From assembly GCA_029689965.1 (NCBI GenBank), contig CP121450.1:2356001-2420000 (forward strand): a DNA stretch of 64,000 bases, written 5' to 3'. Shown in pieces: positions 230 to 64,000 of this stretch (position 1 is its first letter; each line of letters begins with the position of its first letter). The translations under genes were made by a program, and so were the position numbers. Below the pieces are notes generated by a model. The model was not told where the DNA came from. It was given only the letters and a program-made list of their open reading frames with translations, and searched no databases. This DNA is from Curtobacterium flaccumfaciens. GTDB lineage: Bacteria > Actinomycetota > Actinomycetes > Actinomycetales > Microbacteriaceae.

Positions 230-322
230 CCCTCGCGCCTCGCGGTCGGCGCCCGCGCCGGGCGCGGCCGCGCCGGGCGCGGCCGCGCCCGGCGCGGCCG
301 CGAGACTCGGCTGGCTGTCCGT

Positions 323-388: not shown

Positions 389-424
389 GGGCCCGCCACC
401 GCGCCCCTCCGCCCGCGGGGCGCG

Positions 425-2898: not shown

Positions 2899-2942
2899 GG
2901 CACCCTTCTGTGAGACCCGGAGTCGTCTGGAAGACTCTTGAG

Positions 2943-4105: not shown

Positions 4106-4142
4106 CACGACTCGCCCGCAGCGTGTTCCCGCCCCACGCCAG

Positions 4143-4239
4143 TGTGCGAGGTTCCGTACGCCGTGCGGGGGTTCGCGCTTGCCACAGTGTTCGCAACCTC
4201 GCACAGTGCGGGCGAGACCTCGCACGGTGCGAGGTCTCG
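4143..4239. repeat. Nested palindromes built on TGCGAGGT
   Basis: Two stems lie between the convergent phosphodiesterase and sepH genes. TGTGCGAGGTT at 4143-4153 pairs with AACCTCGCACA at 4195-4205, and CGAGACCTCGCAC at 4213-4225 pairs with 4227-4239 across a one-base loop. The word TGCGAGGT or its complement occurs four times. They probably act as transcription ends for both genes. There is no T-tract. Confidence 0.45.
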
Positions 4240-4250
4240 TGATGGTCGGG

Positions 4251-5272: not shown

Positions 5273-5537
5273 GGTTCCGCCTTCCGAGCGTCGCGTACGG
5301 TCGTGCGTCGTACCACGTGAGTATGCAGCCGCGGGGAGGCGATCCCGGGAAGGCGCACGGGCGTGCCGTGGACTGCTCGGAGAACGATTCCGGCTACCGG
5401 GAATAGGTGGGCGGATCGACGGGTTGCAGCGCCAGGACGACCCGCCGGAGAGTTCGGTTTGCGCTCTGGCGAGACGTGGTGCAAACTGTCGCCGCCGATC
5501 ACCGGCGACGACCTCTCGATACGAGAAATGGATGGGC

Positions 5538-5835
5538 ATGGCCACCGATTACGACGCCCCCGGAAGACCGACGACAACTCCGACTCGGAGTCGATCGAGG
5601 CCCTCAAGGAGCGCGTTCCCGACAAGATGTCGGGGTCGTCGACGATGATTCCGACAACCCCGGCAGCTTCGAGCTCGCCGGACAGGACCTCAGCGACGTC
5701 GACCTCGACGTCGTCGTGCTCCCGCCCCAGGTCGACGAGTTCACCTGCGTCGAGTGCTTCCTCGTGAAGCACCGCTCGCAGCTCGACCACGAGTCGAAGC
5801 TCGGCCCGGTCTGCGCGGAGTGCGCAGCGCTCTAG
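5538..5835 (+). CDS. DUF4193 family protein, frameshifted
   Basis: Small acidic protein of about 99 residues in the actinobacterial DUF4193 family, found next to dut and sepH; function unknown. Joined, it starts MATDYDAPGKTDDNSDS and ends LVKHRSQLDHESKLGPVCAECAAL. The C-terminal CVEC and CAEC pairs form a likely zinc ribbon. Two lost bases explain the frame breaks: GGAAG where GGCAAG is expected near 5568, and GGGG for GGGGG near 5633. The start is the second of two nearby ATGs. The conserved CxxC pairs, length and neighbours make the family call safe. Confidence 0.8.
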
Positions 5836-5881
5836 GGAACGCCCACGACACGAACGGCCCGCCGCTCTCCGGAGCAGCGGG

Positions 5882-6020
5882 CCGTTCCGCGCGTACGGAA
5901 CGCTTTCGCGCGTAGGAAGCGGTTCCGCGCGTAGGGTGCACTTTCGCGCGTAGGAAGCACTTTCGCGCGTAGGAGGTACTTTCGCGCGTAGGAAATCGGA
6001 AGTTTCGACCTCCTACGCGC
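5882..6020. repeat. 19-bp tandem array, six direct units plus one inverted copy
   Basis: The core CGCGCGTA occurs at 5888, 5907, 5926, 5945, 5964 and 5983, exactly 19 bp apart, within a unit close to TTTCGCGCGTAGGAAGCAC. An inverted copy (CCTCCTACGCGCG) ends at 6020. The array fills most of the 290 bp between the convergent DUF4193 and DUF3093 genes. The period is not a multiple of three and no gene covers it. Confidence 0.85.
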
Positions 6021-6125
6021 GATTCGGCTTTCCATGGCACGCGTTGTGGGACGGAACGTGCGTGGCGGGGGTGCGCCGTGCCTCCAGGCGGGCCGCCGCG
6101 AGGCGGAGACCGACGCGACCCGGCG

Positions 6126-6589
6126 TCAGGAACGCAGCGCGGCCACCACCGCGGCCGGGTTCCGCACGCTGACGAGCCAGTAGGGCGTCGGGTCGGCCTC
6201 GTCCCGGACCTCGACGCGGACGACCCCGCGCACGTACCCCGGAACAGCGTCCACGCCCGTGCGTCGAGCCTCGGCCCGCGCTGCGTGGTGGCCTCGGCAC
6301 CCTCGAAGCCCGCGACGTCGCCGACCAGCGTGCGCGGCAGGTGCGCGCGACCGGCACGGAACTCGGTGTCGGTGACCTCGATCGTCGGCGCGAGCACCCA
6401 GAGCAGCACGAGCACGCCGAGGTACATCCCGACGGCCACCAGGACGCCGGCGAGCACGCTGATCGGCAGGAACACGAGGAGGCTGGCGGGGATGACGAGC
6501 GCGGTCGCCAGGTAGAGGACGGGCGGAGCCCACAGTCGTTCGCGGTACAGGGTCACGACACCATTCGACCACGAGTCGGCCCAGGTCAC
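6126..6589 (-). CDS. DUF3093 family membrane protein, frameshifted
   Basis: Actinobacterial DUF3093 protein of about 150 residues with two adjacent membrane helices (PVLYLATALVIPASLLVFL and ISVLAGVLVAVGMYLGVLVL), then a soluble domain (TDTEFRAGRAHLPRTLVGDV ... DPTPYWLVSVRNPAAVVAAL). Its function is unknown; the family is regularly linked to dut. One lost C near 6240 breaks the frame. The start is uncertain: GTG at 6589 gives 11 extra residues, whereas GTG at 6556 begins VTLYRERLWAPP like family members and is my preference. It is divergent from dut, only 32 bp from that start if 6589 is used. Confidence 0.75.
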
Positions 6590-6621
6590 GGAACGGTCAC
6601 GGTCTGCACTACCCTCGACAC

Positions 6622-7112
6622 GTGACCGAACCAGTCGACGTGCTCTGGACCGGGGAGAACGCTCCCGGATACGCCCACCCCGGTGACGCCGGTGCGGACC
6701 TCGTCTCGACCGAGGCGTTCGTGCTGCAGCCCGGCGAGCGACGGCTCGTGGGCACTGGCCTGCGGATCGCGCTGCCCGAGGGGTACGCCGCCTTCGTCGT
6801 CCCGCGCAGCGGTCTCGCCGCGAAGCACGGCATCACGATCGTCAACGCCCCCGGCACGGTGGACGCCGGGTACCGGGGCGAGATCAAGGTGGCCCTGCTC
6901 AACACCGACCAGTCCGCGTCGCACGAGGTGCACGTCGGGGACCGCATCGCGCAGATGATCGTGATGCCCGTCCCGCGCGTGGCCTTCACCCGCGTCGACG
7001 AGCTGCCGACAGCGCCCGCGGCCAGGGCGGGTTCGGTTCGTCGGGCTACGGTGACCGGAGCGGTGCCGTCAGCGGCGCCGCAGAGGACCTTCAGGAAGGA
7101 ACGCGCGCATGA
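6622..7112 (+). CDS. dut: dUTP diphosphatase, C-terminus frameshifted
   Basis: Hydrolyses dUTP to dUMP and pyrophosphate, keeping uracil out of DNA. Trimeric dUTPase motifs are all present: AHPGDAGADL (motif 1), VPRSGLAAKHGI (motif 2), NAPGTVDAGYRGE (motif 3 with catalytic Asp), RIAQMIVMPV (motif 4). The glycine-rich motif 5 (GQGGFGSSGYG) appears only after restoring one C in the run near 7008. The GTG start at 6622 gives the expected length of about 163 residues. The restored stop (7110-7112) overlaps the ATG of the next gene at 7109, so the two are translationally coupled. Confidence 0.9.
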
Positions 7113-7829
7113 AGTTCGGCCGACGCAAGCGTGACGAGGTCGAGGTGGCGGAGTCCGTCGCCGACGAGGTCGAGGTCGCGGACACGACCCCCGAGGTGGA
7201 CATCGCGACCGACGCGGACACGGACCTCGACGAGGTGGACGCCGTCGCGCCGACCGACAAGTCCGCTCCGGAGGACCGCGCCGAGAGCGGGCCGCACGAC
7301 GAGACCGAGGCGAACCTGGTGCGCCCGTACGTGGACCTCGGCGGCGTCAAGGTCCTGCCCCGCGAGGGACTGCACCTGCGGCTCGAGGTCGAGGAGGGCT
7401 CGCAGCGTGTCGTCGCGGTCGGGCTCGACTACGACGAGTCCACGCTCCAGGTCCAGCCGTTCGCCGCCCCCGCTCCACCGGGCTCTGGCACGAGATCCGC
7501 GGCCAGATCGCCGAGCAGATCGAGCGCCAGGGCGGCGTCGTGACCGAGGTCGACGGCCCGTTCGGCCCGAGCTCCGCGCACAGGTGCCGGTCGTCTCGGA
7601 CGGCACCGGCGTGACGGACGGCGCTCGTCCGGCCCGCTTCATCGGCGTCGACGGTCCGCGCTGGTTCCTGCGCGGTGTGATCGCCGGCAAGGCGGCCGAG
7701 CGGCCCGACGAGGCCGCCGAGATCGAGGACCTGTTCCGCAGCGTCGTCGTGGTCCGCGGGACCACCCCGATGCCCCCGCGGGACCTCATCCCACTGCACA
7801 TGCCGAAGTCGACGCAGTCGGCCGTCTGA
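7109..7829 (+). CDS. DUF3710 family protein, frameshifted
   Basis: Cytoplasmic actinobacterial protein of unknown function, about 240 residues joined. The basic N-terminus MKFGRRKRDEVE is followed by a very acidic low-complexity stretch to residue 60, then the family domain with VDLGGVKVLPREGLHLRLEV, GLWHEIRGQIAEQI, RFIGVDGPRWFLRGVI and VVVVRGTTPMPPRDLIPLHM. Two lost bases break the frame: C5 for C6 near 7477, and GAGCTCC for GGAGCTCC near 7567. It is coupled to dut by an ATGA overlap and followed 31 bp later by DUF3159, a conserved three-gene order. Confidence 0.8.
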
Positions 7830-7860
7830 CCGGTACGACGTGAACAGGCCTGGAGGCACG

Positions 7861-8637
7861 GTGCCGGACCACGACGACACCTCCCGTCCGGACGCGGTCG
7901 CGTCCGGCGGCGCTCGCGAGGTCCACGACGCCGCCGCGCCGTCCTTCAACGACCAGTTCCGTGCGGCCGTGGCGAACACGGGGCTCGGCAAGGTCGCTCC
8001 CGGCGAGGCGCCGTCCGGGCACGCGCTGGTCGCCGCGATCGGCGGCGTCCGCGGCCTCGCCGAGTCGGTGCTGCCCGGCCTGGCGTTCCTCGTCGTCTAC
8101 GCGATCACGAAGGAGCTCGTCCCGAGCGTCCTGATCCCGGTGGCCGTCGGCGTCGTGTTCGTGGTGCTCCGCCTGCTGCAGCGGCAGTCGATCGTGATGT
8201 CCTTCGCGGGCATCCTCGGCGTGGCGATCTCGGCAGGACTGGCGCTCATCACCGGGCGCGCCGAGAGCAACTTCATCCCCGGCATCCTCATCAACGCGGT
8301 CTGGCTCGTCGGACTGCTCGTGACCCTGGCGATCCGGCGACCCCTGATCGGCCTCGTCGTCGGGTTCCTGCTGCCGCCGAACGAGGACGGCAGCCACCAG
8401 GACTGGCGTGCCGACCCCGCGAAGCGGCGCGTCCTGACCGTGGCGACGTGGCTGTGGGTCGGGCTCTTCGCGATCCGGCTCGTCATCGAGGTCCCGCTCT
8501 ACCTGACGGCGCAGGTCGAGCTGCTCGCCGGCATCAAGCTCATCACCGGGGTGCCGCTGTACGCAGCGCTGCTCTGGGTGACGTGGCTCCTGGTCCGCAC
8601 GGTGTTCCGAGGTGCGGGCGACACCGCCGCGGCGTAG
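7861..8637 (+). CDS. DUF3159 family integral membrane protein
   Basis: Intact membrane protein of about 258 residues, DUF3159, function unknown. After a soluble N-terminus of roughly 70 residues there are five to six hydrophobic helices, including VLPGLAFLVVYAITKEL, VLIPVAVGVVFVVLRLL, IVMSFAGILGVAISAGLALI, WLVGLLVTLAI and YAALLWVTWLLVRTVF. I chose the GTG at 7861 because GGAGG lies just upstream (7852-7856); an in-frame GTG at 7840 would add seven residues. It is the last gene of the dut - DUF3710 - DUF3159 group and precedes aconitase on the same strand. Confidence 0.8.
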   Translation: MPDHDDTSRPDAVASGGAREVHDAAAPSFNDQFRAAVANTGLGKVAPGEAPSGHALVAAIGGVRGLAESVLPGLAFLVVYAITKELVPSVLIPVAVGVVFVVLRLLQRQSIVMSFAGILGVAISAGLALITGRAESNFIPGILINAVWLVGLLVTLAIRRPLIGLVVGFLLPPNEDGSHQDWRADPAKRRVLTVATWLWVGLFAIRLVIEVPLYLTAQVELLAGIKLITGVPLYAALLWVTWLLVRTVFRGAGDTAAA

Positions 8638-8653
8638 ACGCGGTGTAGGGTTG

Positions 8654-8667
8654 TCTCGACATCGAGA
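8654..8667. promoter_or_regulatory. Palindrome TCTCGACATCGAGA upstream of acnA
   Basis: A perfect 6-bp dyad with a 2-bp spacer (TCTCGA-CA-TCGAGA) lies 108 bp before the aconitase start, in the only gap between DUF3159 and acnA. The size and symmetry suit a dimeric repressor or activator. Which protein binds is unknown. Confidence 0.35.
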
Positions 8668-8775
8668 TAGTTCCCTCGGCCCTTCCCGGGCTGACGGGTT
8701 TAGGTTTGCCTTGCTGGTGGGACGCCCTGCGGCCCGCTTGGATGGGGCACACCGATCAACCAGGGAGGCGGCACA

Positions 8776-11593
<2,818 letters not shown>

Positions 11594-11630
11594 GCAACGG
11601 GTCCACGGGGTCGCTGACGCGACCACACGA

Positions 11631-11673
11631 CGGACTGGAGGCGCGGTGCCACTGGCACCGCGCCTCCAGTCCG
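11631..11673. terminator. Perfect 20-bp hairpin after acnA (TGGAGGCGCGGTGCC family)
   Basis: CGGACTGGAGGCGCGGTGCC at 11631-11650 pairs perfectly with 11654-11673 over a 3-nt loop (ACT). The same sequence recurs at 20363 and, degenerate, near 31000 and 33647, so it is a dispersed palindromic element. It follows acnA and probably ends its transcript; there is no T-tract. Confidence 0.6.
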
Positions 11674-11793
11674 TCCACGGTCGCCACGTCGCTCCGAAGG
11701 CTGCGCGACCCGCCGGCACCGGGGACGCAGCAACCAGTCGGTCCTCCGGTCGCACGCATAGAGTGAGTGGTCAGCACCACGAAAGGAGCGCCC

Positions 11794-13723
11794 GTGAGCC
11801 TGCTCTCCAGCATCACGTCGCCGCGCGACCTGAAGCGTCTGTCGGACGCGCAGACGACGGAACTCGCCGCAGAGATCCGGCGGTTCCTCGTCGCGGAGGT
11901 CGCGAAGACCGGTGGGCACCTCGGGCCGAACCTCGGCGTGGTCGAGCTCACCCTGGCGATGCACCGCGTGTTCGACTCGCCCCACGACCCGTTCGTCTTC
12001 GACACGGGCCACCAGTCGTACGTGCACAAGCTCGTCACCGGGCGACAGGACTTCTCGCGGTTGCGGGAACGCGGTGGGCTCGCGGGCTACCCGCAGCGGA
12101 GCGAGTCGGAGCACGACATCGTCGAGTCCTCGCACGCGTCGTCGTCGCTGTCGTGGGCGGACGGCATCTCCCGGGCGTTCCAGCGCACCGGGCAGCAGGA
12201 CCGCACGGTCGTGGCAGTGGTGGGGGACGGGGCGCTCACCGGCGGGATGACGTGGGAGGCGCTCAACAACATCTCCGACGCGAACGACCGGCGACTCGTC
12301 ATCGTCGTGAACGACAACGGGCGCTCGTACGCGCCGACGATCGGCGGGATGGCGCGGTTCCTCAGCTTCGTCCGGACCCGTCGCGAGTACCGCGCGCTGT
12401 ACGAGACCACGCGCGCCGTCGCCGGACGGTTCGGCGCCCCCGGCGGGCGATCTACCGCGGCATGCGCGGGGTCTGCACGGGTTCCTGTCGCGGTTCACGA
12501 ACAACGAGGCGCTCTACTCGAACCTCGACATCAAGTACATCGGGCCGGTGAACGGACACGACCAGCGCGCCGTGGAGGGCGCGCTCCGGCAGGCGAAGGA
12601 GTACGGCGCACCGACGATCGTGCACGCGATCACCGAGAAGGGGCACGGCTTCGAGCCGGCGCTGCGCGACCAAGCGGACCAGTTCCACGCCGTCGGGCAC
12701 ATCGACCCGGAGACGGGGGAGTCGCTCGACGTCTCGTCGGGGCCGTCCTGGACCTCCGTGTTCGCGAACTCCCTGGCGGAGCTCGGCGACGACGACCCGC
12801 GGATCGTGGCGATCACGGCGGCGATGCTCCGGCCCACCGGGCTGCACCTGTTCCAGGAGCGGCACCCGGAGCGCGTGTACGACGTCGGGATCGCCGAGCA
12901 GCACGCCGTGACGACCGCGGCGGGGCTCGCCTACGGCGGCCTGCACCCGTCGTGGCGCTCTACGCGACGTTCCTGAACCGGGCGTTCGACCAGGTGCTCA
13001 TGGACGTCGCGCTGCACCGGGCGGGCGTGACGTTCGTCCTCGACCGCGCGGGCATCACCGGCCCGGACGGTCCGTCGCACCACGGCATGTGGGACCTCGC
13101 TCTGCTGCAGGTCGTCCCTGGAATCCGCATCGCGGCGCCCGCGATGCCGTGACGCTGCGCGAGGAGTTCCGCGAGGCCGTCGCCGTGGACGACGCGCCGA
13201 CCGTGCTGCGCTGGTCGAAGGGACAGGTCGGGCCGGACGTGCCCGCGCTCCGTCGACTGGCCGACGGCGTCGACGTGCTCCGGGACGCCCCGGACTCGTC
13301 GCCCGACGTGTTGTTCGTCGCCGTCGGGTCGATGGTGCCGATCGCGCTCGAGGCGGCGGAGCTGCTCGCGGCGCAGGGGATCGGGGCGACCGTCGTGGAC
13401 CCGAGGTGGGTGGTGCCGATCCCGTCGTCGCTCATCGACCTGTCGCGCGACCACCGGCTCGTCATCACCGTCGAGGACGGCGTCCGCGTCGGTGGGGTCG
13501 GGACGCGTCTGCGCCAGGACCTGCGTGCTGCCGGGTCGACACCGGCGTGAACGAGCTCGGACTGCCGGACGAGTTCATCGACCATGCGTCCCGCTCCGAG
13601 ATCTTGGCCGACGTCGGGCTCACCGCGCAGGCGATCGCCCGCGACGTCATCGACCAGGTCGTCGGGACCAAGCTGCCGCAGGCGAAGCCGGCGCGGTCGC
13701 GGCAGGCCGTCGACCGGCGTTGA
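11794..13723 (+). CDS. dxs: 1-deoxy-D-xylulose-5-phosphate synthase, frameshifted
   Basis: Thiamine-diphosphate enzyme joining pyruvate and glyceraldehyde 3-phosphate, the first step of the non-mevalonate isoprenoid pathway; about 643 residues joined. The GTG at 11794 is preceded by AAAGGAG with a 6-nt spacer. Motifs: GGHLGPNLGVVELT, FDTGHQSYVHKL, TPP-binding GDGALTGGMTWEALNN, the pyrimidine domain VGIAEQHAVTTAAGLA, and DRAGITGPDGPSHHG. Apparent lost bases near 12440-12470, 12948, 13140 and 13545 (CCCC to CCC, GGGG to GGG) break the frame. It stands alone between two hairpins. Confidence 0.93.
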
Positions 13724-13730
13724 GCGCGGC

Positions 13731-13792
13731 GGAACCAGGTTCCGGACACTGCACCGCGCTTTTCCCTGGTGCTGTGTCCGGAACCTGGTTCC
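13731..13792. terminator. Hairpin between convergent dxs and fadB-like genes
   Basis: A perfect 19-bp inverted repeat (13731-13749 against 13774-13792) with a 24-nt loop, lying 7 bp after the dxs stop and 15 bp before the end of the minus-strand gene. Each arm contains the smaller palindrome GGAACCAGGTTCC. It probably ends both transcripts. Confidence 0.55.
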
Positions 13793-13807
13793 GGGAGGCG
13801 GGGCGCG

Positions 13808-15952
13808 TCAGCGGGACGCGGGGCCGACGATCTTCGGATCGTGGAACGCGCCGCCGAAGACCCGCTCGGATGCGCCCGAGCGGTCGAGGTACGGGCTGAT
13901 GCCACCGGCTTGGAACGGGTAGCCCGCGCCGAGGATCAGACCGAGGTCGATCTCCTCGACGTGCTGGACGACCCCGTCCTCGAGCATGCGGTGCAGCTCG
14001 TCGGCGAGCGCGTCCTCGAAGCGGCGCTGCATCTCGGCAGCGTCGACCGGCTTCGCGTCCTTCCTCGCCGGTGCGACGAGCTTCACGGCTGCGGGGTCGT
14101 ACCCGGTCGCGTTGCCCTTCTTGTCGCGGGTCAGGATGTGCCCGAACTCGGCGATCTTCTTCAGCCCGTCGCCGGGGTAGAAGCGCTCCGGCCACGCGGC
14201 GTGGTGGGAGTCGAGCACGTGTGCGCCGACCGGGAGGCCGACGAGCTCGAGCAGTTCGAACGGCGACATCGGGAGGCCGAGCGGCGCAGCTCCCTGGGCG
14301 ACGACGTCGAACGACGTGCCCTCCTCGACGCCGCGCATCGCCTCGCCGAGCACCCGCGCGAGCACGCGGTTGACGACGAAACCCGGCTGGTCGGCCGTGA
14401 TGATCGCGGTCTTCTTGAGGGTCTTCGCGACGGCGAGGGCGGTGACGAGGGCCTCGTCCGAGGTCTTCGACGCGCGGACCACCTCGAGCAGCGGCATGAC
14501 CGCGACCGGGTTGAAGAAGTGGAACCCGACGAGGCGTTCCGGGTTGGCGAGCACCGACGCCATCTCGTCGACCGACAGGGATGACGTGTTCGTGGCGAGG
14601 ATCGCGTCCGGTGCGATGACCTGCTCGATCTTCCGGAAGACGTCCTGCTTGACGCTCATCTCCTCGAACACGGCCTCGATCACCCAGTCGGCGTCCGCGA
14701 ACGCGTCGTAGGAGACCGAGCCGGACACGAGCGCCTTGATGCGGTTCGCGTCGTCGGGGGAGACCCGGCCCTTGTCGAGCAGCTTGTCCACCTCGCCGGC
14801 GATGCGAGCGACGCCCGCGTCGACACGGCTCTGGTCGACGTCGGTGATCACCACGGGGACGCCGAGGCGGCGGGCGAACAGCAGGGCGAACTGGGACGCC
14901 ATGAGCCCCGCGCCGAGCACGCCGACCTTCGTGATCTTCTTCGGCTCGACGCCCTCCGGGGCACCGACCGGACGCTTCGCCCGCTTCTGCACGAGGTCGA
15001 ACGCGTACATCGACGCGGCGAACTGGTCGCCCGAGATGAGGTCGGCGAGGGCGTCGTCCTCGTCGGCGAACCGCTCGTCCAGTGACCCCGACTTCGCCGA
15101 GGCAACGAGGTCGAGCGCGCGGAACGGCGACTTCGGGACCGTGCCGATCTTCGAGGCCACCTGGCCACGGGCGACCTTGACGACCGTGCCCCACGCGGCC
15201 TTCTCGATCATGCCGGGCTCGTTCTTCCGGACGACCTTCGTCCGGCCGCTGACGACGTCGTCGACCCACGCCACAGCGGAGGGCAGGAAGGTGACCGAGG
15301 GGATGAGCGCGTCACCGATGCCGAGCTCGACCGCGGCCGGACCGTCCATCAGGCGGTTGTTCTTGAGCGGGTTCTCGACGATGACACGGAGTGCCTTCTC
15401 CGGACCGATCAGGCGCGGGAGCAGCGTCGCGCCGCCCCAGCCCGGGATGATGCCGAGGAAGACCTCGGGGAGCCCGATCCCCTGCGCCGCCGACGAGAAC
15501 AGGCGGTAGGTGCAGTGCAGGCCGATCTCCAGGCCGCCGCCGAGAGCGATGCCGTTGATGAACGCGAACGACGGGACGCCGAGGTCGGAGAGCTTCCGCA
15601 GCGTGGCGTGCCCGAGGGCGGCGAGGTCGTGCGCGACGTCGCGTGACGGCACCGAGGCGGCCTGTGAGAGGTCGGCACCGGCGGCGAAGCAGTACTCCTT
15701 GCCGGTGATCGCGACCGCCTGGACCGTTCCCGCGGACGCCTCGGTCTTCAGGGTGTCCAGCACCCCGGAGAGCTCGTACAGCGTGCGCGGACCCAACGTC
15801 GAGGGACGCTTGTAGTCCTTGCCGTTGTCGAGCGTGATGAGCGCGAGCGTGCCACCCGAGGGGAGCGCGACGTGCTTGAGGTACGAGTGGGTGACGACCT
15901 CGTCCTCACTGAGCGCGAGGAGCCGGTCGTTGTCGGTGATGGTCACGATCAC
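13808..15952 (-). CDS. Fatty-acid oxidation multifunctional enzyme: enoyl-CoA hydratase / 3-hydroxyacyl-CoA dehydrogenase
   Basis: Intact protein of about 714 residues. The N-terminal half is a crotonase domain (AITGKEYCFAAGADL, FINGIALGGGLEIGLHC, EVFLGIIPGWGGATLLPRL). The C-terminal half is a 3-hydroxyacyl-CoA dehydrogenase with the NAD site VGVLGAGLMASQFA, the ATNTSSLSV segment and the catalytic His in GFHFFNPVAVMPLLE. It hydrates enoyl-CoA and oxidises the 3-hydroxyacyl-CoA in beta-oxidation. The GTG start at 15950-15952 overlaps the stop of the upstream thiolase (GTGA), so the two form a coupled FadA-FadB-like pair. It is one of the few long genes here with no frame break. Confidence 0.9.
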   Translation of the reverse strand: MIVTITDNDRLLALSEDEVVTHSYLKHVALPSGGTLALITLDNGKDYKRPSTLGPRTLYELSGVLDTLKTEASAGTVQAVAITGKEYCFAAGADLSQAASVPSRDVAHDLAALGHATLRKLSDLGVPSFAFINGIALGGGLEIGLHCTYRLFSSAAQGIGLPEVFLGIIPGWGGATLLPRLIGPEKALRVIVENPLKNNRLMDGPAAVELGIGDALIPSVTFLPSAVAWVDDVVSGRTKVVRKNEPGMIEKAAWGTVVKVARGQVASKIGTVPKSPFRALDLVASAKSGSLDERFADEDDALADLISGDQFAASMYAFDLVQKRAKRPVGAPEGVEPKKITKVGVLGAGLMASQFALLFARRLGVPVVITDVDQSRVDAGVARIAGEVDKLLDKGRVSPDDANRIKALVSGSVSYDAFADADWVIEAVFEEMSVKQDVFRKIEQVIAPDAILATNTSSLSVDEMASVLANPERLVGFHFFNPVAVMPLLEVVRASKTSDEALVTALAVAKTLKKTAIITADQPGFVVNRVLARVLGEAMRGVEEGTSFDVVAQGAAPLGLPMSPFELLELVGLPVGAHVLDSHHAAWPERFYPGDGLKKIAEFGHILTRDKKGNATGYDPAAVKLVAPARKDAKPVDAAEMQRRFEDALADELHRMLEDGVVQHVEEIDLGLILGAGYPFQAGGISPYLDRSGASERVFGGAFHDPKIVGPASR

Positions 15953-55654: not shown

Positions 55655-56461
55655 CTAGGCGGCGGATTCCTCCGCGTGTCGGCGGGTGAGCGCCAACGGG
55701 AGGCTCCATCCGTGGAACCAGGACAGCGTGCTCGCCCAGCTCCCTCGCGTGTGGAGGTCCGCTGTGCCGCCCGACTGGGTCATGGTGTCGATGAGGTGCC
55801 GGAGCGGATCGCGCTGCTGCTGCAGCCACCCGAGCGCCTTCTCGAGAGCCTCTCCGTCGTCGTCGAGCTCCGCGAGGTGCCGGCGGCAGACGATGCCGGT
55901 GTCGGGATGCGGGTCCATCGCACAGTCCGCCGCACAGGCAGGACAGACCACGGACTCCCAGGAGGGCTTCGTCGCGCGGACGTGTTCTCCCGTGTAGCGG
56001 AACCGGCTGACCTCTTCGGTCAATCCTTGACTGTCGGAGCCGGCGTACCCGACCACCGGGGTACCGGAGAGGACGTTGCCCGGTTCGGTACCACCGAGGT
56101 CGCGGCAGATGGCGCACTGCTCGGTACCGAGCAGTCGTCTCCGGAGCTTCCTCGACCGCGCCCGGTGCAAGCGGTGCAGTGCCGTCTCGAGGAGGTCGTC
56201 GTAGAGGATGCACACGTCGAAGGGCTGGTGTCCGCCGGCCGCGCCGGCGCCGTACTGCCACAGCTCGATCTCGACGACGGCGTGCCCCCAGGAGTGCCGG
56301 TCGCAGAGGCCCCAGGCGTCACGGAGCTGCTGACGGGCGCCGCCGTCCATGATGTCGCCGTGCACGAACGACCACAGCAGGCGCACTTCGGGAACCGACA
56401 GCGCATGCGTGGCGTCGGGCAGCAACGGGTCGCGCCTGCCGATGGCGTCGGGCTGCGTCAT
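55655..56461 (-). CDS. Unknown cysteine- and histidine-rich protein
   Basis: Intact, 268 residues, cytoplasmic, no membrane segments. Metal-type pairs are spread along it: GLCDRHSWGHAVVEIELW (about residue 52), EQCAICRDLGG (about 115), VVCPACAADCAMDPHPDTGI VCRRHLAEL (about 175-205). A Trp/His-rich end (STLSWFHGWSLPLALTRRH) follows. The CxxH / CxxC spacing suggests two zinc or redox sites. I do not recognise a family. The start ATG 56461 gives MTQPDAIGRRDPLLPDATHA. Divergent from the MutS-like operon across 277 bp, in which I see no gene. Confidence 0.6.
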   Translation of the reverse strand: MTQPDAIGRRDPLLPDATHALSVPEVRLLWSFVHGDIMDGGARQQLRDAWGLCDRHSWGHAVVEIELWQYGAGAAGGHQPFDVCILYDDLLETALHRLHRARSRKLRRRLLGTEQCAICRDLGGTEPGNVLSGTPVVGYAGSDSQGLTEEVSRFRYTGEHVRATKPSWESVVCPACAADCAMDPHPDTGIVCRRHLAELDDDGEALEKALGWLQQQRDPLRHLIDTMTQSGGTADLHTRGSWASTLSWFHGWSLPLALTRRHAEESAA

Positions 56462-56738
56462 GGGTCTCCTATCTCGTGGGCACGTCGAGTGCCGAGATAG
56501 GGACCGTTGTCGACGGATGTCGAGGTTCGTGGCTGGTGAGCCCCACCACCAGGTGATGCGTACGACCGAGTGTAGCCATGCGTCGCCGAGCGCGCGCGTC
56601 TTCTCGGTTGCGACGTTCCTTGTCATCCGGCGCCGAGACGTGGCAGTGTGGTCCACATCGGCGATGGAGCTCGCCGGGCAGACCGCCCGAACCGCGGACA
56701 CCGCTGATGGCACCTGATGACTTTGTTGGGAGTCCTCA

Positions 56739-58359
56739 GTGCCCGCTGCCGTCGAAACCACCCCGTTCCCGCGACTGCTGTTCCCCTCGGAGACCCGGAT
56801 CCACGACCGGAGGTCGCATCGCTCACATGGACGGACCTCGCGCTCGACCGGGTCTTCGACCGTGTGTTCGCCCACTTCCACCCCGTGGAGGCGGTCGCCG
56901 CCGCCGTGCGCCGACCGCTTCGTACAGTCGACGAGGTCCGGTACCGGCAGGAAGTGTTCCGTGACCTCGCGGAGCCTGGATCCAGGCGCGCCGTGGAGAC
57001 GTTCGCGCAGCGGGTGCGCGGCGCGTTGGACCTCGCGGACGCTGCGACGGCATCACACTACGAGGTCAGTGCCAACCGTGTTCACCTGCACGCTGTCGCC
57101 GAGTACGTCGCGGCGATCGACGAAGCGACCCAATCGTTCCGTAGCTTCGAGACGAAAGGCCGGCTGTCCTCGCGGGCATTGACCGAGTCCTGCGCCGCAT
57201 TGCAGGAGCTGCAACGCTCAGCACCGTTCCGTTCCCTCGCCGACGAGTCGGCACGGCTCGTCGAACTGCTCGACGACGTCCGCGCGGAGGTCGGGATGCG
57301 CGGCGCCCGGTTCGTGATCAGTCCGGCGAGGGACGACCTGGACGTCGCGGACGACGCCGGGAACGTGTTCGCCCGGTTCCGAGACCCGGACCAGCACCCG
57401 GACGGGCGTTCGGACATGCAGGTACCGCGGCTCGACATGGACCACGTGCAGGAATGGGTCCTCGACGACATCGCCCGCCTGCACCCGCAGGTCTTCGATC
57501 GTCTCGCCGCCTTCCGCCGGAACACCGTCGCGTTCGTCCACCCGGGGGTCAGTCGGATGGTCGAGGAGCTGGTGTTCTTCCGCGCCATCACCGCGTACGA
57601 CGACGAGTTGGCCAGCCCAGCAGCCGGATTCTCACTTCCGAGTGTGGAAGAGCGCCCTCGTCGTTCCGCGCCGAAGCCGCGTTCGACGTCGCGCTCGCGG
57701 GCACACTCAGGGACGATGCCGAGCTGGTGACGAACGATCTCCGCCTCGACGACGGCGAACGCCTCCTGATCGTGACCGGCCCCAACCAGGGTGGGAAGAC
57801 CACCACGGCCCGCATCGTCGGGCAACTGCACCACCTTGCCGCGATCGGCGCTCCGGTACCGGCGACGAACGTTCGGATCATGCTCACCGACCAGATCCTC
57901 ACGCAGTTCGAGCGTGGGGAGCAGCTGGAGTCGTTGGAAGGCAAACTCGGCGAGGAGGTACACGCCCTCCACGACCTCCTCGACGCTGCGACCGACAGGA
58001 CGCTGATCGTCCTCAACGAGATCTTCACCTCCACCGCAGCCATCGATGCGGAACTGCTCAGCCGGGAGATCCTGCGTCGGGCCGTGGACATCGCACCGAT
58101 CGTGGTCTGTGTCACCTTCATCGACAGCCTGACCCGCTTCGACGAGCGCACCGTCAGCATGGTGAGCCTCATCGACCCGGCGGATCCCACCAGGCGAACG
58201 TTCAAGGTCGAGCGGAGAGCAGCGGACGGGCGCGCGTACGCGCAGGCCCTCGCGGACAAGTACCACCTCACCGACTTCGCGATCGCGGCGGCGGTGGCCG
58301 AGAACACCGACACCGCTGACCCGATGCTCGTCGGGAGCGACCGAGACGGAGATGCATGA
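56739..58359 (+). CDS. MutS-like ATPase, first of a pair, frameshifted
   Basis: About 540 residues. MutS core (domain III-like helices, LALDRVFDRVFAHFHPVEAV) and ATPase domain: Walker A LIVTGPNQGGKTTTARIVGQ, the later LEGKLGEEVHALHDLLDAAT, and the Walker B position TLIVLNEIFTSTAAIDAELL, where Asn replaces the usual Asp; then VCVTFIDSLTRFDERT. No mismatch-recognition domain I is seen, so it is not a true mismatch-repair MutS. GTG 56739 with GGGAG upstream is the likely start (VPAAVETTPFPRLLFPS). Breaks near 56795 and 57660. Its stop overlaps the ATG of the second MutS-like gene. Confidence 0.75.
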
Positions 58360-59873
58360 TGGATACTCAGCTTCTCGAACGCCGTCATCTTCCCATCGAC
58401 GATGAACCGTACGGGTCGGACGACCTCGTCCGCGACCTCGAGATCGAACGGATCCTGCTGCGGATGTCCCGCGGCGACGACTTCATCAAGTCGGTGTGCC
58501 GGGCGGCGCTGCTGCATCCGCTGCACGACGTCGACGAGATCCGACGGCGGCAGGGCGGTGTCGAGGACTGCATCCGGAACGACGACGCAGTGCGCGCGAT
58601 CTACGACCTGGCCGGCCGCGCGCTCGACGTCCAGCGCAGCATCTACATGTCCATCTACGCTCGGCGTCCCGCCGCACTGCTCTCCCGGGCACAGCGGCTG
58701 CTCGCCGACCTCGGTGGCAGCCTGCTCGAACTCCGTCGGCACCTCGAGGACCACGAGTCGGCATTCCGGTCGCCGGCGTTCCGCGCGTTCGCCGAGACGG
58801 TCCGTACCCGGTTGGACGACGAGTTCATGGCACGGTACCGCGAGCAGGTACGACGGCTGGAGTTCCGGTCCGGCGTCGGCATGCGGGTCCGCCTGGGACG
58901 GTCGGCGGAGATCATCCCCGAGCAGCTGCACACGGTCCAGCGCAGCACCTGGAACCCACTGAGCCGACTGACCAGCAGCGCACCGTCGTTCAGCTTCACG
59001 ATCCCGGAACGCGACGAATCCGGCGCGAACGCCGCAGCAGACCTCCGCGACCGTGCGCTGGTGCGCGCCGCGCAACACGGCAACCAAGCACTCGAGGACG
59101 TCCTCGGGTTCTTCCGGCAGATCCGGACAGCAACGGCGTTCTACCTCGGAGCGGCGAACCTCGCCGACGAGCTGACCCAGCTCGGCGGCGACCTCGTCAT
59201 GCCTCGGTTCATCGCCGACGACGGTGACCAGCGAATCGACGGCCTGTACGACCCGAGCCTGGCGCTGCGCCTCGACCGCCGTCCCACGCTCAACGACATC
59301 GACCTGCACGGCAAACCGCTCCTGGTGATCACCGGCGCCAACCAGGCCGGGAAGTCCACGACTCTCCGGGCACTCGGGCTGCTGCAGCTGTTCGCGCAAG
59401 CCGGCATGCACGTCCCCGCGTCGCACGCAGACGTGCACATCGTCGGCCGCGTGTTCACACACTGGGCGCGAGAAGAGGACAGCGGCCTCGTGCACGGCAA
59501 GTTCGACGAGGAACTCCAACGCGTCAGTGACATCGTCCGACGGATCCGCCGCGGCGACGTGTTGCTGTCGAACGAGTCGTTCTCGTCGACGAACGAGACG
59601 GAAGGATCCACCATCGCGGCGGAAGTGATCCGCGCTCTCGTCGGGTCCGGCGTCCGGGTGTGGTGTGTCACGCACCTGTTCACGTTCGCGAACGACCTGT
59701 GGCAGCACGACCAGGAACGGGCGCACTTCGTCCGCGCCGCCGCAGCGGACCCCGACACCGACGGCAGCGCACCCTTCCGCCTGGCCGCCGCACCTCCTGA
59801 GCCCACCAGCCACGGCGCCGATGTCTTCAACCGCGTCTTCGGAACCGACCTGCACACGGAGAGCACACCATGA
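58356..59873 (+). CDS. MutS-like ATPase, second of the pair
   Basis: Intact, 505 residues, a paralogue of the preceding protein. N-terminal helices (LEIERILLRMSRGDDFIKSV), then a clamp-like region, and the ATPase core: Walker A LLVITGANQAGKSTTLRALG, FAQAGMHVPASHADVHIVGR, and the Walker B position DVLLSNESFSSTNETEGSTI, again with Asn-Glu in place of Asp-Glu; WCVTHLFTFANDLW follows, the His of the switch. No domain I or connector domain. ATGA overlap with the upstream gene and with the downstream phosphatase. Likely partners in a heterodimer. Confidence 0.78.
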   Translation: MMDTQLLERRHLPIDDEPYGSDDLVRDLEIERILLRMSRGDDFIKSVCRAALLHPLHDVDEIRRRQGGVEDCIRNDDAVRAIYDLAGRALDVQRSIYMSIYARRPAALLSRAQRLLADLGGSLLELRRHLEDHESAFRSPAFRAFAETVRTRLDDEFMARYREQVRRLEFRSGVGMRVRLGRSAEIIPEQLHTVQRSTWNPLSRLTSSAPSFSFTIPERDESGANAAADLRDRALVRAAQHGNQALEDVLGFFRQIRTATAFYLGAANLADELTQLGGDLVMPRFIADDGDQRIDGLYDPSLALRLDRRPTLNDIDLHGKPLLVITGANQAGKSTTLRALGLLQLFAQAGMHVPASHADVHIVGRVFTHWAREEDSGLVHGKFDEELQRVSDIVRRIRRGDVLLSNESFSSTNETEGSTIAAEVIRALVGSGVRVWCVTHLFTFANDLWQHDQERAHFVRAAAADPDTDGSAPFRLAAAPPEPTSHGADVFNRVFGTDLHTESTP

Positions 59874-60475
59874 CAGCAACGAACCGTCGGAAGTTCTACC
59901 TCGTCCGGCACGGCGAGACGCACCTCAACGCAGAGGGCCGCATCCGGGGCCTGCTCGACGTGCCGCTCACCGAACGGGGATGGGCGGAAGCCGACGCCGT
60001 CGGAGTCGCCCTCGTTCCGGCGCACCCCGTGCGAGTGGTCACCGGGCCGCTTGCCCGAGCGCGGGAGACCGCAGGTGCCATCGCCGAACACACAGGCGCG
60101 CCCGTCGTCGTCGACGACCGGTACGTCGACCGGGACTACGGGAGGTGGTCCGGACAGATCCGGTCGGAGGTGATCGCGCAGTGGGGGTCCGTCGATGACG
60201 CGCCTGGCGTCGAACCGGTCGGGGACGTCGTGACACGCTGCACGAGCGTCCTCGAGGAGCAGATGGCGTACCCCGAGGACGGGCCGATCGTCCTCGTGGG
60301 CCACGACGCGACCAACCGTGCGCTCCTCGCGGCACTGTTTCCCGAACTCGGTCCGGCCGAGGGGATCCCACAGCGCACGGCCTGCTGGAACCTCGTGGAG
60401 TCCGACGGAACGAACTGGCGGCTGCTGCTGCTCGATCAGAAGCCCGGCGACCCGGTGCCGGAGGCCGCTCGGTGA
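59870..60475 (+). CDS. Histidine phosphatase family protein (phosphoglycerate-mutase-like)
   Basis: Intact, 201 residues. RHG motif FYLVRHGETHLNAEGRIRGL with the phosphorylated His, TGPLARARETAGAIAEHTG with the second Arg, DRDYGRWSGQI with a Glu/Asp-like position and VLVGHDATNRALLAAL with the second catalytic His. Phosphatases of this branch act on small phosphorylated metabolites; the substrate is open. ATG overlaps the MutS-like stop and its stop overlaps DUF211, so it belongs to the five-gene unit. A phosphoglycerate-type activity would fit the enolase on the facing operon, but that is inference. Confidence 0.85.
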   Translation: MTATNRRKFYLVRHGETHLNAEGRIRGLLDVPLTERGWAEADAVGVALVPAHPVRVVTGPLARARETAGAIAEHTGAPVVVDDRYVDRDYGRWSGQIRSEVIAQWGSVDDAPGVEPVGDVVTRCTSVLEEQMAYPEDGPIVLVGHDATNRALLAALFPELGPAEGIPQRTACWNLVESDGTNWRLLLLDQKPGDPVPEAAR

Positions 60476-60756
60476 GCATCCGCAGACTCTCGCTCGACGT
60501 CGACAAGGTCATCGACCGGCCGGACATGATCGCGCTTGCACATGCGTTGGAGCGGGTCGCCGGCGTCGACGCGATCAACATCACCGTCACTGAGATCGAC
60601 ATCGAGACCGTCGGCACGGACGTCACCGTGGAAGGCGACGACATCGATACAGGCGCACTGTTCGCTGCGATCGAGGAGGTCGGCGCCGTTCTGCACAGCA
60701 TCGACGAGGTCGTCGCCGGCACGCGCGTCATCGAACACGTGAAGCGCTCACGGTAG
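60472..60756 (+). CDS. DUF211 family protein
   Basis: Intact, 94 residues, ferredoxin-like alpha/beta fold of DUF211 (PF02680): SIRRLSLDVDKVIDRPDMIA LAHALERVAGVDAINITVTE, then VTVEGDDIDTGALFAAIEEV GAVLHSIDEVVAG. The HSIDEVVAG end is the family signature. Function unknown; archaeal members are metal-binding. The GTG start overlaps the phosphatase stop by 4 bp and the stop abuts the ATG of the next gene. It is uncommon in actinobacteria, supporting an acquired module. Confidence 0.85.
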   Translation: MSIRRLSLDVDKVIDRPDMIALAHALERVAGVDAINITVTEIDIETVGTDVTVEGDDIDTGALFAAIEEVGAVLHSIDEVVAGTRVIEHVKRSR

Positions 60757-61297
60757 ATGGCCGGACGTGTCCGCCCGCGTCTCCCGGTCCTGCCGCTGGT
60801 GCTGGGTGTCACCGACGGGATGCTCAACGCCCTCACGCTGGCCGCGTCGGCGATCCTCGACGGCGGTAACGGCGGTATCAGCCTGCTGCTCGCGCTCCGC
60901 GTCGGGACGGCCGCGTTGGTCACCGCCGGGTTCACGATGTTCGTCGCCGACTACGCTGAGCGACGTGTCGCCCTGGCGCGCGCCGAACGGCAGTTGAGCC
61001 TGACCCGGCCGGGCAGCTCGCGAGCACCCGGCTCGGCCGGGATGCGGTCCGCGAGTCGCTGACGGCGATGACGGTGGCCGGGCTGTCCAGCCTCCTCGGT
61101 GCAACGGCACCGTTGCTGGTCGGCGCAGCCCTGGCGGTGCCCCGTGGATCGTGCTCGGCGCGACGGTGCTGTGCTTGGCGGGGCTCGGCTGGGCGATCGG
61201 GCGGATGGTGCAGGGCAGGTGCGTGCTCTGGGCGTCGTCAATGCTCCTCGGCGGGGTCGCCGTCACGTTCGTCGGCTTGGAGTTGCACATCGCGTGA
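60757..61297 (+). CDS. VIT1/CCC1-like membrane protein, frameshifted
   Basis: About 181 residues, five hydrophobic segments: LVLGVTDGMLNALTLAASAI, RVGTAALVTAGFTMFVADYA, MTVAGLSSLLGATAPLLVGA, PWIVLGATVLCLAGLGWAIG, ASSMLLGGVAVTFVGLELHI. The GVTDGMLNALTLA and FVADYAERR patterns resemble the first helices of the VIT1/CCC1 iron/manganese exporters, which would make it a divalent-cation transporter. Two frame breaks (near 61012 and 61140) affect the middle. ATG 60757 directly follows the DUF211 stop. The last gene of the five-gene operon, convergent with the 61333 gene. Confidence 0.5.
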
Positions 61298-61332: not shown

Positions 61333-61644
61333 TCAGAAGTCGACGAGGAAGAGGAAGATGCGTTGCCCCTGCCGAACCTCGTGCGCCATCTCACGGATCG
61401 TGCCGAGTCGGCCGTCGACGATGAGCGCCTCCGCGAGTTCCGGGACCGATTCGAGGTTCTGTTCCGTGAGCGGGAAGTACTCGACGTGACCTTCGTTGAG
61501 GTCCGTCGACAACCAGTGGTCTCGTCGGTTGGGGCTGCGCCATCCGAGATCCTCCGACTCCCTCGGAGACCACTTCACGATTCGTTGCATCGTCTTCCTC
61601 GTAACCGGTGTGCCGCTGCCCGTGTCGCGCTCAGTGTCCGTCAT
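61333..61644 (-). CDS. Small unknown protein at the end of the fluoride operon
   Basis: Intact, 103 residues. [20 protein letters not shown], then [40 protein letters not shown] and [21 protein letters not shown] compact charged domain with no Cys or membrane part; I do not recognise it. Its ATG lies 14 bp inside the end of ppa, so it is translated with that enzyme and is the last gene of the minus-strand operon. It is convergent with the VIT-like gene, 36 bp apart. Confidence 0.6.
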
Positions 61645-62119
61645 CGAGGAACCGCCGCTGGGCTTGCTCGATGATCTCTTCCGCGCGGGCTCGGGCGTCC
61701 CAACCGCGGACGGTGACGTGCTTGCCGTGCTCGAGTTCCTTGTAGTGCGTGAAGAAGTGCGCGATCTCGTCCAACGTCTCCCGCGGGACGTCTTCGATGT
61801 TGCGGACGTGTGCGAACCGGTCGTCGTCGTCGGGGACGGCGAGGATCTTGTCGTCACCTCCGTTCTCATCGGTCATGCGGAACATGCCGACCGGGCGCGC
61901 GGCGATGAGCACACCAGGCAGGGTGGGCCGGATGAGGAGGACGAGCACGTCGAGCGGGTCGCCGTCTTCGCCGAGGGTGTCTTCGATGAAGCCGTAGTCC
62001 TGCGGGTAGACCATCGCCGTGTGGAGGGCTCGGTCGAGCCGTATCCGACCGGAGTCGTGGTCCACTTCGTACTTGTTGCCACTGCCGGCGGGGATCTCGA
62101 TCGTGACGTCGAACTTCAT
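61631..62119 (-). CDS. ppa: Inorganic pyrophosphatase, family I
   Basis: Intact, 162 residues. Hydrolyses pyrophosphate with Mg2+, an enzyme strongly inhibited by fluoride. [50 protein letters not shown] with the metal-binding Asp cluster, and [20 protein letters not shown] are the family motifs; the C-terminus [19 protein letters not shown] is normal. ATG 62119 follows AAAGGA by 9 bp and I prefer it to ATG 62128. Its place after crcB makes it a spare copy for fluoride stress rather than the housekeeping enzyme, which is inference. Confidence 0.93.
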
Positions 62120-62141
62120 GGTGGTCATTCCTTTCGAATGG

Positions 62142-62385
62142 TCAGAGGAGTGCGCCGAGCCAGATGCCGAGCGCGGACGCTGCGACGGACGCAACGACGA
62201 GCATGCCGAGCCCGTTGAGCAGGCCGCGCAGCCACGAGCCGGATCGGACGAGGCGGACGGTCTCGAAACTGGCGGTGCTGAACGTGGTGTAGCCGCCCAT
62301 GAGGCCAGTGCCCGACAGGGAGGACGAGTCGAGAGCGGGCGTTGATCCGTCCGTCGAGCAGCAGCGTCGACGGCAGCGCGGTCAC
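62142..62385 (-). pseudogene. crcB: Truncated crcB (fluoride channel), internal deletion
   Basis: 244 bp where a normal gene has about 375. The start GTG (62383-62385) overlaps the stop of the intact crcB. The N-terminal [25 protein letters not shown] joins, in another frame, to [30 protein letters not shown] and ends GIWLGALL. About 45 residues that hold the channel's NxxG helix are missing, and the length is not a multiple of three. A 130-bp gap is too large for the one-base errors seen elsewhere, so a true deletion is likely. The intact partner next to it could still work as a homodimer. Confidence 0.6.
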
Positions 62386-62906
62386 GGTGTGCCCTTCCTT
62401 CGCGGGCGCGCTCCTCCGGCGACGACCAGCCCGAGCGCCGTCGCAATCGCACCTGCGACAACGGTGGCGACTGCGTATCCGGTCCCCGCGAGCAGGCGGT
62501 GAGCGATGAGCAGCTTGGCGGTTCCGGTCGCAAGGGTGCTGTACGTGGTGAACCCGCCGAGGAACCCCGTGCCGAGTCCCAGGCGTGTGTTCCGTCGGAG
62601 ACCTTCGTCGGCGCCGCGGTCTGCCAGCGCCTCGAGCAGCAGGCCGAGCAGGAACGCCCCGATGACGTTGACACCGAAGATCGTCCAGGACACGCCGTTC
62701 ACAGCGGGAAGCGCGTCGCTGATCATCGCACGGGCGGCGGTGCCGAGCGTGCCGCCAGCGGCGACGACACCGACGAACGACCATCGAGCGTGAACGGGTC
62801 GAGGAGCCCCTCGTGGGGACTCCTCGACCTCGATGTCGGCATCGACGGGCAGCTGCACGTCGTCGGGCGGCATCGTCGATGCCGACGTCTTCGAATGCTC
62901 TGTCAC
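62382..62906 (-). CDS. crcB: Fluoride efflux channel CrcB/Fluc
   Basis: Intact, 174 residues with a 45-residue acidic N-terminal extension ([20 protein letters not shown]). The channel part: [37 protein letters not shown] with the fluoride-lining Asn, and [24 protein letters not shown] with the Phe-box and TTYST signature, then a fourth helix [20 protein letters not shown]. Dimeric Fluc channels export fluoride. The GTG overlaps the eno stop (GTGA) and its own stop overlaps the truncated crcB. The extension is unusual for CrcB. Confidence 0.93.
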
Positions 62907-64000
62907 GGGCGAAGGCCGTACCGCAGCGCTGGGTTCGCTGTCTCGATGTCGGTGAGCCGGTTGTACTTCGCGATGCGTTCCCCGCGCGCCGGCGCGCCGG
63001 ACTTGATCTGGCCGACGCCGGTGCCGACGGCGAGGTCGGCGATGAACGTGTCGAGCGTCTCTCCCGACCGGTGCGAGATCATGCATGCCATTCCGACGGA
63101 TCGGGCCGTCGCGATCGCCGCCAACGTGTCGGTGACCGTGCCGATCTGGTTGGGCTTGATGAGCACGGCGTTGCTGTACCCCCGGTCTGCACCGTCGCGG
63201 ATACGGGTCGGGTCGGTGACGTAGAGGTCGTCGCCGACGATCTGGACGCTGTTCGCCGCACGCTGGGCGAAGACAGTCCACCCGTCGAGGTCTTCTTCCG
63301 CGAATCCGTCCTCCAGACTCCGGACGGGGAACTCGTCCACGAGCTCCAGGTAGTAGTCGGCGAGCTGGTCGCTGGTCAAGGTGCGATCCCCGACCCGGTA
63401 GGACCCGTCGTGGTGGAACCCGTTGGCCGCAGGGTCCAGTGCGATGGCGACGCCGTCGACGGCTGCGACGAAGCCGGCGTCGCCGATCGCGGAGACCAGC
63501 AGCTCCAGCGCCTCCTTCGGGTCGGCGATCGGCGGGGCGAAGCCGCCTTCGTCGCCGAGACCGGTGGACCCGTACCGGTGTGCGATGGCGGAGCGGAGCG
63601 CGTGGTACACCTCGGCGCCGGTGGTGACGGCCTCCGCTTCGCTGGACGCTCCGACCGGCGCGATCATGAACTCCTGGAAGGCGAGGCCGTTGGTGGCGTG
63701 CGCCCCGCCGTTGAGGACGTTGAAGTGTGGCACGGGCAGCAGCTCGACGGACTCCGTCTCCTTCGACAGCCAGGAGTACAGGTGCTCGTGCGCGACGAAC
63801 GCGAAGGCGCGAGCCGCCGCGATGGAGGTGGCGACGGCGGTGTTCGCGCCGATCCTGGCGAGTTGCTCACCGCCGTCGAGCTCCCGCAGCGCACCGTCGA
63901 CGGCGGCGAGGGAGGTCCACTCGTGCTGGCCGAGCACATCGGCGACTTCGGTGCGGGCGATGTGCACTGCCCGGTCGACGCCCTTGCCGCCGAAGGCCGT
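62903..64000 (-). CDS. eno: Enolase, N-terminus beyond the window (partial)
   Basis: 366 residues to the window edge; about 60 N-terminal residues are missing. Interconverts 2-phosphoglycerate and phosphoenolpyruvate; it is a classic target of fluoride. VPHFNVLNGGAHATNGLAFQ EFMIAPVG, STGLGDEGGFAPPI with catalytic Glu, GVAIALDPAANGF with a metal Asp, SLEDGFAEEDLDGWTVF, QIVGDDLYVTDP, NAVLIKPNQIGTVTDTL with the catalytic Lys, and SHRSGETLDTFIADLAVGT are all present. It heads, or stands near the head of, the operon with crcB and ppa. Being next to crcB it is probably a second, accessory enolase. Confidence 0.95.
   Translation of the reverse strand, partial: TAFGGKGVDRAVHIARTEVADVLGQHEWTSLAAVDGALRELDGGEQLARIGANTAVATSIAAARAFAFVAHEHLYSWLSKETESVELLPVPHFNVLNGGAHATNGLAFQEFMIAPVGASSEAEAVTTGAEVYHALRSAIAHRYGSTGLGDEGGFAPPIADPKEALELLVSAIGDAGFVAAVDGVAIALDPAANGFHHDGSYRVGDRTLTSDQLADYYLELVDEFPVRSLEDGFAEEDLDGWTVFAQRAANSVQIVGDDLYVTDPTRIRDGADRGYSNAVLIKPNQIGTVTDTLAAIATARSVGMACMISHRSGETLDTFIADLAVGTGVGQIKSGAPARGERIAKYNRLTDIETANPALRYGLRP

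Follow-up and report, generated by a model that had tools for sequence, protein, structure and literature searches.

In a stretch of 64,000 nucleotides of the Curtobacterium flaccumfaciens contig CP121450.1 (assembly GCA_029689965.1, positions 2,356,001 to 2,420,000 of the forward strand; the whole stretch is called the window here), two adjacent genes, A and B, encode ATPases of the MutS type. They lie in an acquired fluoride-resistance island, in which genes for the fluoride channel CrcB, enolase and inorganic pyrophosphatase (PPase) stand beside two fluoride riboswitches. Because the pair sits behind one of these riboswitches and among resistance genes, it most likely aids survival of fluoride and not DNA repair, and we regard it as very probable that A and B are a MutS4 pair of the fluoride response rather than part of mismatch repair. 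A preliminary description of the locus, made from the sequence alone, had singled out the two ATPases and overlooked both the riboswitch and the adjoining PPase, CrcB and enolase genes.

The closest described system is MutS4A/MutS4B. Kim et al. (2017, PMC5742357), citing Lin et al. (2007), describe the two genes as adjacent, with overlapping stop and start codons, and place those of Mycobacterium yongonense in an island with an enolase, an NADH dehydrogenase complex and a hydrogenase subunit. The present pair shares with them the adjacent paralogues, the stop of A lying over the start of B, the patchy horizontal spread and the enolase in the island; unlike it, they are read in the accessible part of that paper as mismatch repair or recombination genes, without fluoride. 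The predicted layout of the pair is that of this named subfamily, a likeness drawn from architecture. Similarly, Weinberg et al. (2010, PMC2864571) list mutS, as a DNA repair gene, among the genes behind the crcB motif. There too a riboswitch stands in the 5' leader and the gene behind it bears the name mutS, but that gene is taken for DNA repair, and the portion of that text available to us has no word on pairing, missing domains or an Asn. The preliminary description had proposed an undescribed system; given these two reports, that claim is not supported.

Fluoride resistance operons and islands, for example on plasmids, resemble the locus in CrcB, enolase, PPase, the universal stress protein Usp, antiporter and riboswitch. 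They differ in that MutS is not among the genes named in the accessible text of a 2024 review (PMC11139923), where enolase, PPase, antiporters and formate hydrogen lyase appear but 'muts' does not occur. Our literature search found no paper joining the MutS4 pair with a fluoride riboswitch, nor, in the literature examined, a reason for the presence of 'mutS' behind fluoride riboswitches, which has been known since 2010. The gene list of Baker et al. 2012 reportedly may include MutS.

The riboswitch and the gene pair

Three elements form the centre of the locus:

56651..56723, + strand: fluoride riboswitch aptamer (RF01734, crcB motif), 39.2 bits with a gathering threshold of 34, full model (1-64 of 64)
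56739..58359, + strand: gene A, MutS4A-like ATPase, two frame shifts in the assembly, MutS_V 60.2 bits on the ATPase piece
58356..59873, + strand: gene B, MutS4B-like ATPase, intact, 505 amino acids, MutS_V 63.1 bits

The aptamer ends 15 nucleotides upstream of the likely start of gene A, a GTG at 56739 assigned by eye, and the TGA stop of gene A (58357-58359) overlaps the ATG of gene B at 58356. Riboswitches of this class are switched on by fluoride, and the present one would be expected to behave alike. Folding of the gene A leader gave a z of -1.55, which is not significant.

The preliminary description had reported two coupled MutS-type genes, and this was correct, as were the four motifs that it quoted: GPNQGGKTTT (Walker A) and LNEIFTST in A, GANQAGKSTT (Walker A) and SNESFSST in B. 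Unlike in that description, gene A is no single open frame and is spread over three (56739 to about 56800; 56717-57730 for the N-terminal part; 57454-58359 for the ATPase part), with the likely start in a frame of its own; the frame shifts twice, around 56.80 kb and around 57.65 kb. Relatives of gene A elsewhere read through with no break. Sequencing indels are the likely cause, since 11 of the 20 genes syntenic with one same-genus genome (flagellar part, window 9880-48000) likewise occupy two or more frames; rpoB of the assembly, which is a single contig with a listed completeness of 65.5%, is open. Decay of the pair to a pseudogene in this strain would fit the two breaks, the cut membrane gene further down the operon and a split gene A in Humibacter albus (locus L081), but the split syntenic genes, the listed completeness and the intact gene B speak against it, and we consider it very unlikely. 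A programmed frameshift was rejected, as the split in Humibacter albus (9850-10110, where by eye two residues of the usual FDLALA are missing) falls elsewhere and the relatives are unbroken. Humibacter albus carries two MutS4 pairs, one of them with the split A, and a fluoride riboswitch lies upstream of each. Other window genes between 9880 and 48000 that appear overlapping or broken are to be interpreted with the frame breaks of this assembly in mind.

Domains were scanned in 54 of the 55 full-length A proteins and 60 of the 78 full-length B proteins of the set of relatives introduced below, plus the B of the window. MutS_V was matched in 54/54 A and 61/61 B, and MutS_I, MutS_II and Smr in none, which bears out the earlier statement that mismatch-recognition domains are missing. 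Global profile alignment places B on residues 269-826 and A on residues 268-810 of MutS, comprising the core, a region of clamp length and the ATPase, and B aligns to Msh2 368-798. As the proteins correspond to MutS minus its mismatch-recognition and connector domains, the pair is, by its predicted architecture, no mismatch sensor of the MutS kind.

Among full-length members the Walker B Asp is changed to Asn in 72/72 A and 92/93 B proteins, a replacement that, to judge from its conservation, is not due to chance; the catalytic Glu is retained throughout (72/72 and 93/93). The preliminary description had supposed that hydrolysis might be slow or absent. The signature STF is replaced by GK(L/F) in both A and B, and the position of the H-loop His holds His in 93/93 B and Phe in 72/72 A. 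Because the His is kept in B and is Phe in A, this asymmetry suggests that one site would be more active and the other more passive. Measured against MutS1, the pair has no domain I or II, NE in place of DE and GK(L/F) in place of STF, and keeps the H-loop His in B only.

An ATPase-domain tree covered A, B, MutS1, MutS2 and one KamC. In it A (support 100/98) and B (98/98) are sister clades, and the two combined are separate from MutS1, MutS2 and KamC (100/99), with the reservation that the bootstrap was not fully settled and that long branches meet. The distinct subfamily sharing the Asn, for which a phylogeny had been proposed beforehand, is thereby borne out, and the proposed heterodimer is suggested by the strict coupling of A and B genes described below. 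MutS2 (ribosome-splitting or endonuclease) is alike in consisting of core and ATPase without domains I and II, and B aligns from MutS2 residue 1; it differs in its separate clade and in its C-terminal Smr domain. KamC, the lysine 5,6-aminomutase reactivase (NF052383), is likewise a MutS-type ATPase of similar size, and its name implies an enzyme as target; unlike the pair, the KamC of locus L122 keeps the Walker B DE and STF. Membership in KamC was rejected on these motifs and on the NF052383 scores of 51.3 bits for A and 64.0 bits for B against a cut-off of 300. A defence system was rejected as well, because PADLOC matches are at P-loop level only, with a best score of 21.9 bits.

Association with fluoride riboswitches across genomes

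Relatives were obtained from an alignment-based scan, while a contig scan with a single protein as query yielded none. The named loci are the best 80 of 492 from the alignment scan and thus biased to the query; they come from Actinomycetota, Bacillota, Chloroflexota, Pseudomonadota, Acidobacteriota, Spirochaetota, Bacteroidota and archaea, among others. B occurs without A in only 3 of the 92 loci examined (L082, L105, L118). In 72 of 91 cases the modelled start of B falls 4 nucleotides before the end of the A stop, and in 88 of the 91 the distance is no more than 60 nucleotides. Locus L101, the same contig as L007, was dropped from the neighbour, overlap and residue counts and kept in the count of riboswitches before A.

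Riboswitches were located with RF01734 and with a model of our own, R2, with no more than 6 base pairs and with training matches that came from these loci; the Rfam model confirms the window, L025, L026, L027 and L029 and the whole-genome counts. A riboswitch was taken to lie directly before A when a same-strand R2 match at E <= 0.01 ended -60 to 600 nucleotides before it. In the named set 65 A genes have their N-terminus in the locus, and 63 of them have at least 150 nucleotides upstream; a riboswitch directly precedes 35 of these 63. By comparison, none of 26 genes of the MutS1, MutS2 or KamC type in 18 pair-bearing genomes, with at least 1,257 nucleotides upstream, has one, even at E <= 0.1. 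The association extends to whole genomes, as RF01734 exceeds its cut-off in 65 of the 80 named-locus genomes (34/40 and 31/40) against 12 of 394 genomes of the class (stricter filters), and reaches E <= 0.001 in 69/80 against 25/394. In a draw of genomes across the class, B relatives were present in 11 of the 394, the own genome included. Cross-tabulated, pair and riboswitch occur together in five genomes and are both missing from 376, while six have just the pair and seven just the riboswitch (Fisher p 4e-6, with no correction for kinship). In 5/5 of the genomes with both, the riboswitch lies directly before A. Of the named loci, 62 reach 10 kb or more, and 46 of these contain at least one of riboswitch, enolase, CrcB and PPase.

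A number of observations weigh against a fluoride response. In 28 of the 63 named A genes no riboswitch match was found just upstream, and six pair-positive genomes of the class have none at E <= 0.001. The pairs in L030-L034, L117, L174 and L175, which we call solo pairs, have no riboswitch and no named fluoride gene in the fetched stretch, and a neighbour shared by these actinomycete pairs was sought and not found; they speak against an exclusive fluoride role. On a tree of B proteins the fluoride label changes 14 times, compared with a mean of 18.7 after shuffling. The broken gene A of this assembly weakens the functional case, and the MutS4 operon of M. yongonense raised homologous recombination in Mycobacterium smegmatis, as stated in the accessible part of PMC5742357. 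Among the survey loci, L030-L034 have no riboswitch at gathering level, and L028 is a 3-kb contig too short to judge; L007 has sub-threshold matches only (26.7 and 22.9 bits), and for the second pair of L029 the sole match is to R2, 683 nucleotides before A.

The solo pairs would fit an ATPase pair for stress in general that was merely recruited by fluoride islands and whose client is not specific to fluoride. Set against this, the B tree, built with a quick method, has fluoride-linked pairs in deep branches too, and a single derived cluster (Shimodaira-Hasegawa-like approximate likelihood ratio test 90) unites L030, L031, L032, L034 and L117, five of the solo pairs; we judge such a recruitment unlikely.

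Possible roles of the pair

The explanation that we consider likely as a whole is a fluoride-response operon with a MutS4A-MutS4B ATPase acting as a remodeller. Fluoride entering the cell would turn the mRNA on through the riboswitch at 56651-56723, and the operon would then make MutS4A and MutS4B, a phosphatase, a DUF211 protein and a membrane protein. MutS4A and MutS4B would form a fixed A-B heterodimer, a clamp ATPase of the MutS type, which together with the exporter CrcB and spare enolase and PPase would carry the cell through fluoride stress. Enolase and PPase are classic enzyme targets of fluoride. In the last step, the ATP-driven clamp or remodeller might free fluoride-poisoned enzymes or complexes, trapped with magnesium, fluoride and phosphate. 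We put forward this remodelling by the heterodimer only tentatively, on the grounds that the KamC family is named for the reactivation of an aminomutase and that the mismatch domain of MutS is missing in the pair. If it took place, fluoride tolerance might include a repair step besides export and over-production of targets.

A bolder variant is a reactivase that is itself fluoride-proof. The Asn, GK(L/F) and the loss of the H-loop His in A would keep its own sites from being frozen by ADP-magnesium-fluoride or ADP-aluminium-fluoride, and it would pull complexes trapped in this way out of poisoned enzymes or GTPases. We find this improbable; if true, a whole branch of MutS would serve rescue from a chemical poison, and the label 'DNA repair' would be wrong.

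Alternatively, the pair might be a fluoride-induced DNA clamp, which closes around DNA junctions and, when DNA metabolism suffers from fluoride, promotes or regulates recombination. MSH4-MSH5 is a precedent, as it still encircles DNA junctions with its mismatch domain missing. In the pair, the region before the ATPase spans the MutS core plus clamp by length, and B aligns to Msh2 as described above. The recombination measured with the M. yongonense operon, the sole published experiment in the literature examined that favours one of these readings, points in the same direction. Fluoride did not enter into this recombination reading, since the word has no occurrence in the accessible text of PMC5742357, and the island layout of Kim et al. 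resembles that of L173, a locus from the order of Nocardia (1-14931) with one riboswitch of 57 bits directly before A, two more over the cut-off and one below. Moreover, no other DNA-repair gene is found among the nameable neighbour clusters common to at least four loci. Taking both sides together, we hold the DNA clamp to be rather unlikely.

As the similar layout of L173 carries fluoride riboswitches, the MutS4 island of M. yongonense is probably a fluoride island too. The forward primer that Kim et al. used for reverse-transcription PCR aligns within the B gene of L173 with 2 mismatches and the reverse primer has no match there, while neither matches the locus of Mycobacterium branderi (L176). 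The evidence suggests that the riboswitch-linked 'mutS' genes are the MutS4 pair, in which the mismatch-reading domain is missing. With the fluoride response, MutS4 gains a testable job, and its published role in mycobacterial recombination may need to be read anew.

The island and its neighbours

Around the pair, the following features were recognised:

55655..56500 (approximate), - strand: divergent gene, family not assigned by Pfam, weak relatives in four other survey loci
59870..60475, + strand: histidine phosphatase (branch 1), PF00300 134.5 bits
60472..60756, + strand: DUF211 protein, PF02680 93.5 bits
60757..61062, + strand: membrane protein, N-terminal part, frame-broken, no Pfam match
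61631..62164 (approximate, within the open reading frame 61631-62674), - strand: PPase, PF00719 191.6 bits
62427..62768 (in the open reading frame 62382-63281), - strand: CrcB/Fluc fluoride channel domain, PF02537 69.7 bits
62903..64000, - strand: enolase, running past the window end, PF00113 336.1 bits

The next features of the genome, past the window end, are a histidine phosphatase, a Usp protein, the second fluoride riboswitch, a DoxX-family protein and a Na+/H+ exchanger. The second riboswitch (window-equivalent 65854-65923, L159 1854-1923, 38.4 bits) precedes the DoxX protein, whose position under a fluoride switch may merit a look. Synteny with the same-genus genome ends at window position 54447 and is not resumed in the 20 kb past the window, judged on 16 kb of the same-genus genome beyond the break. 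The pair was not found in any of 35 other genomes of the genus; two of them yielded no more than weak partial matches, 86 and 94 residues long.

Of the unit partners named in the preliminary description, Pfam supports the phosphatase and the DUF211 protein and lends none to the transporter-like membrane protein, which is cut short. Among the links to phage, metal and fluoride that it had raised, fluoride gains support from context, and phage and metal find none. The survey of neighbours that it had proposed revealed a recurrent neighbourhood in which the operon partners are genes of fluoride islands.

The relatives of the divergent gene show 36-50% identity over 44-78 amino acids. A weak aptamer-like match on the - strand at 56491-56559 (own model, 21.0 bits) faces this gene and is not claimed as a riboswitch; back-to-back switches are seen in L173 and some other loci. 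In four loci (window 60472-61062, L077 1354-2183, L102 6842-7899, L110 11543-12408) the gene after DUF211 encodes the same small membrane protein, and the two are a second conserved module of these islands.

Across 91 loci, with clusters identified through Pfam matches of at least one representative each, the neighbours include enolase (22), a subunit of the proton-antiporter/NADH-dehydrogenase type (20), MFS (20), a dynamin-like GTPase (19), an ABC ATPase (13), DUF190 (13), CrcB (11), histidine phosphatase (8), Usp (7) and PPase (7). Representatives labelled NuoB-, HAD-, VIT- or DUF6062-type by eye or recall gave no Pfam match, and these labels are not claimed. Examples of the dynamin-like GTPase are L007 645-2462, L026 10370-13237 and L088 5496-7277; 'gtpase' has no occurrence in the accessible text of the 2024 fluoride review (PMC11139923).

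Enolase, PPase and fluoride exporters accompany the MutS4 pair on islands as well as on plasmids, some of the latter predicted to be conjugative. A B relative was found in 47 of 72,556 plasmid records, and five of the 47 were examined, from Mycobacterium branderi, Klebsiella, Burkholderia, Rhodococcus and Rubrobacter. All five have an R2 match upstream on the strand of the pair, the weakest at 27.9 bits; the match ends 33 nucleotides before the first pair gene in M. branderi, and two genes in the Klebsiella plasmid and one gene in the Rhodococcus plasmid lie between riboswitch and pair. In the Klebsiella plasmid (L177), an operon of antiporter, Usp and pair faces a P-type ATPase, crcB, pgm and eno. 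This plasmid is predicted to be conjugative, and its pair is annotated as DNA mismatch repair protein MutS.

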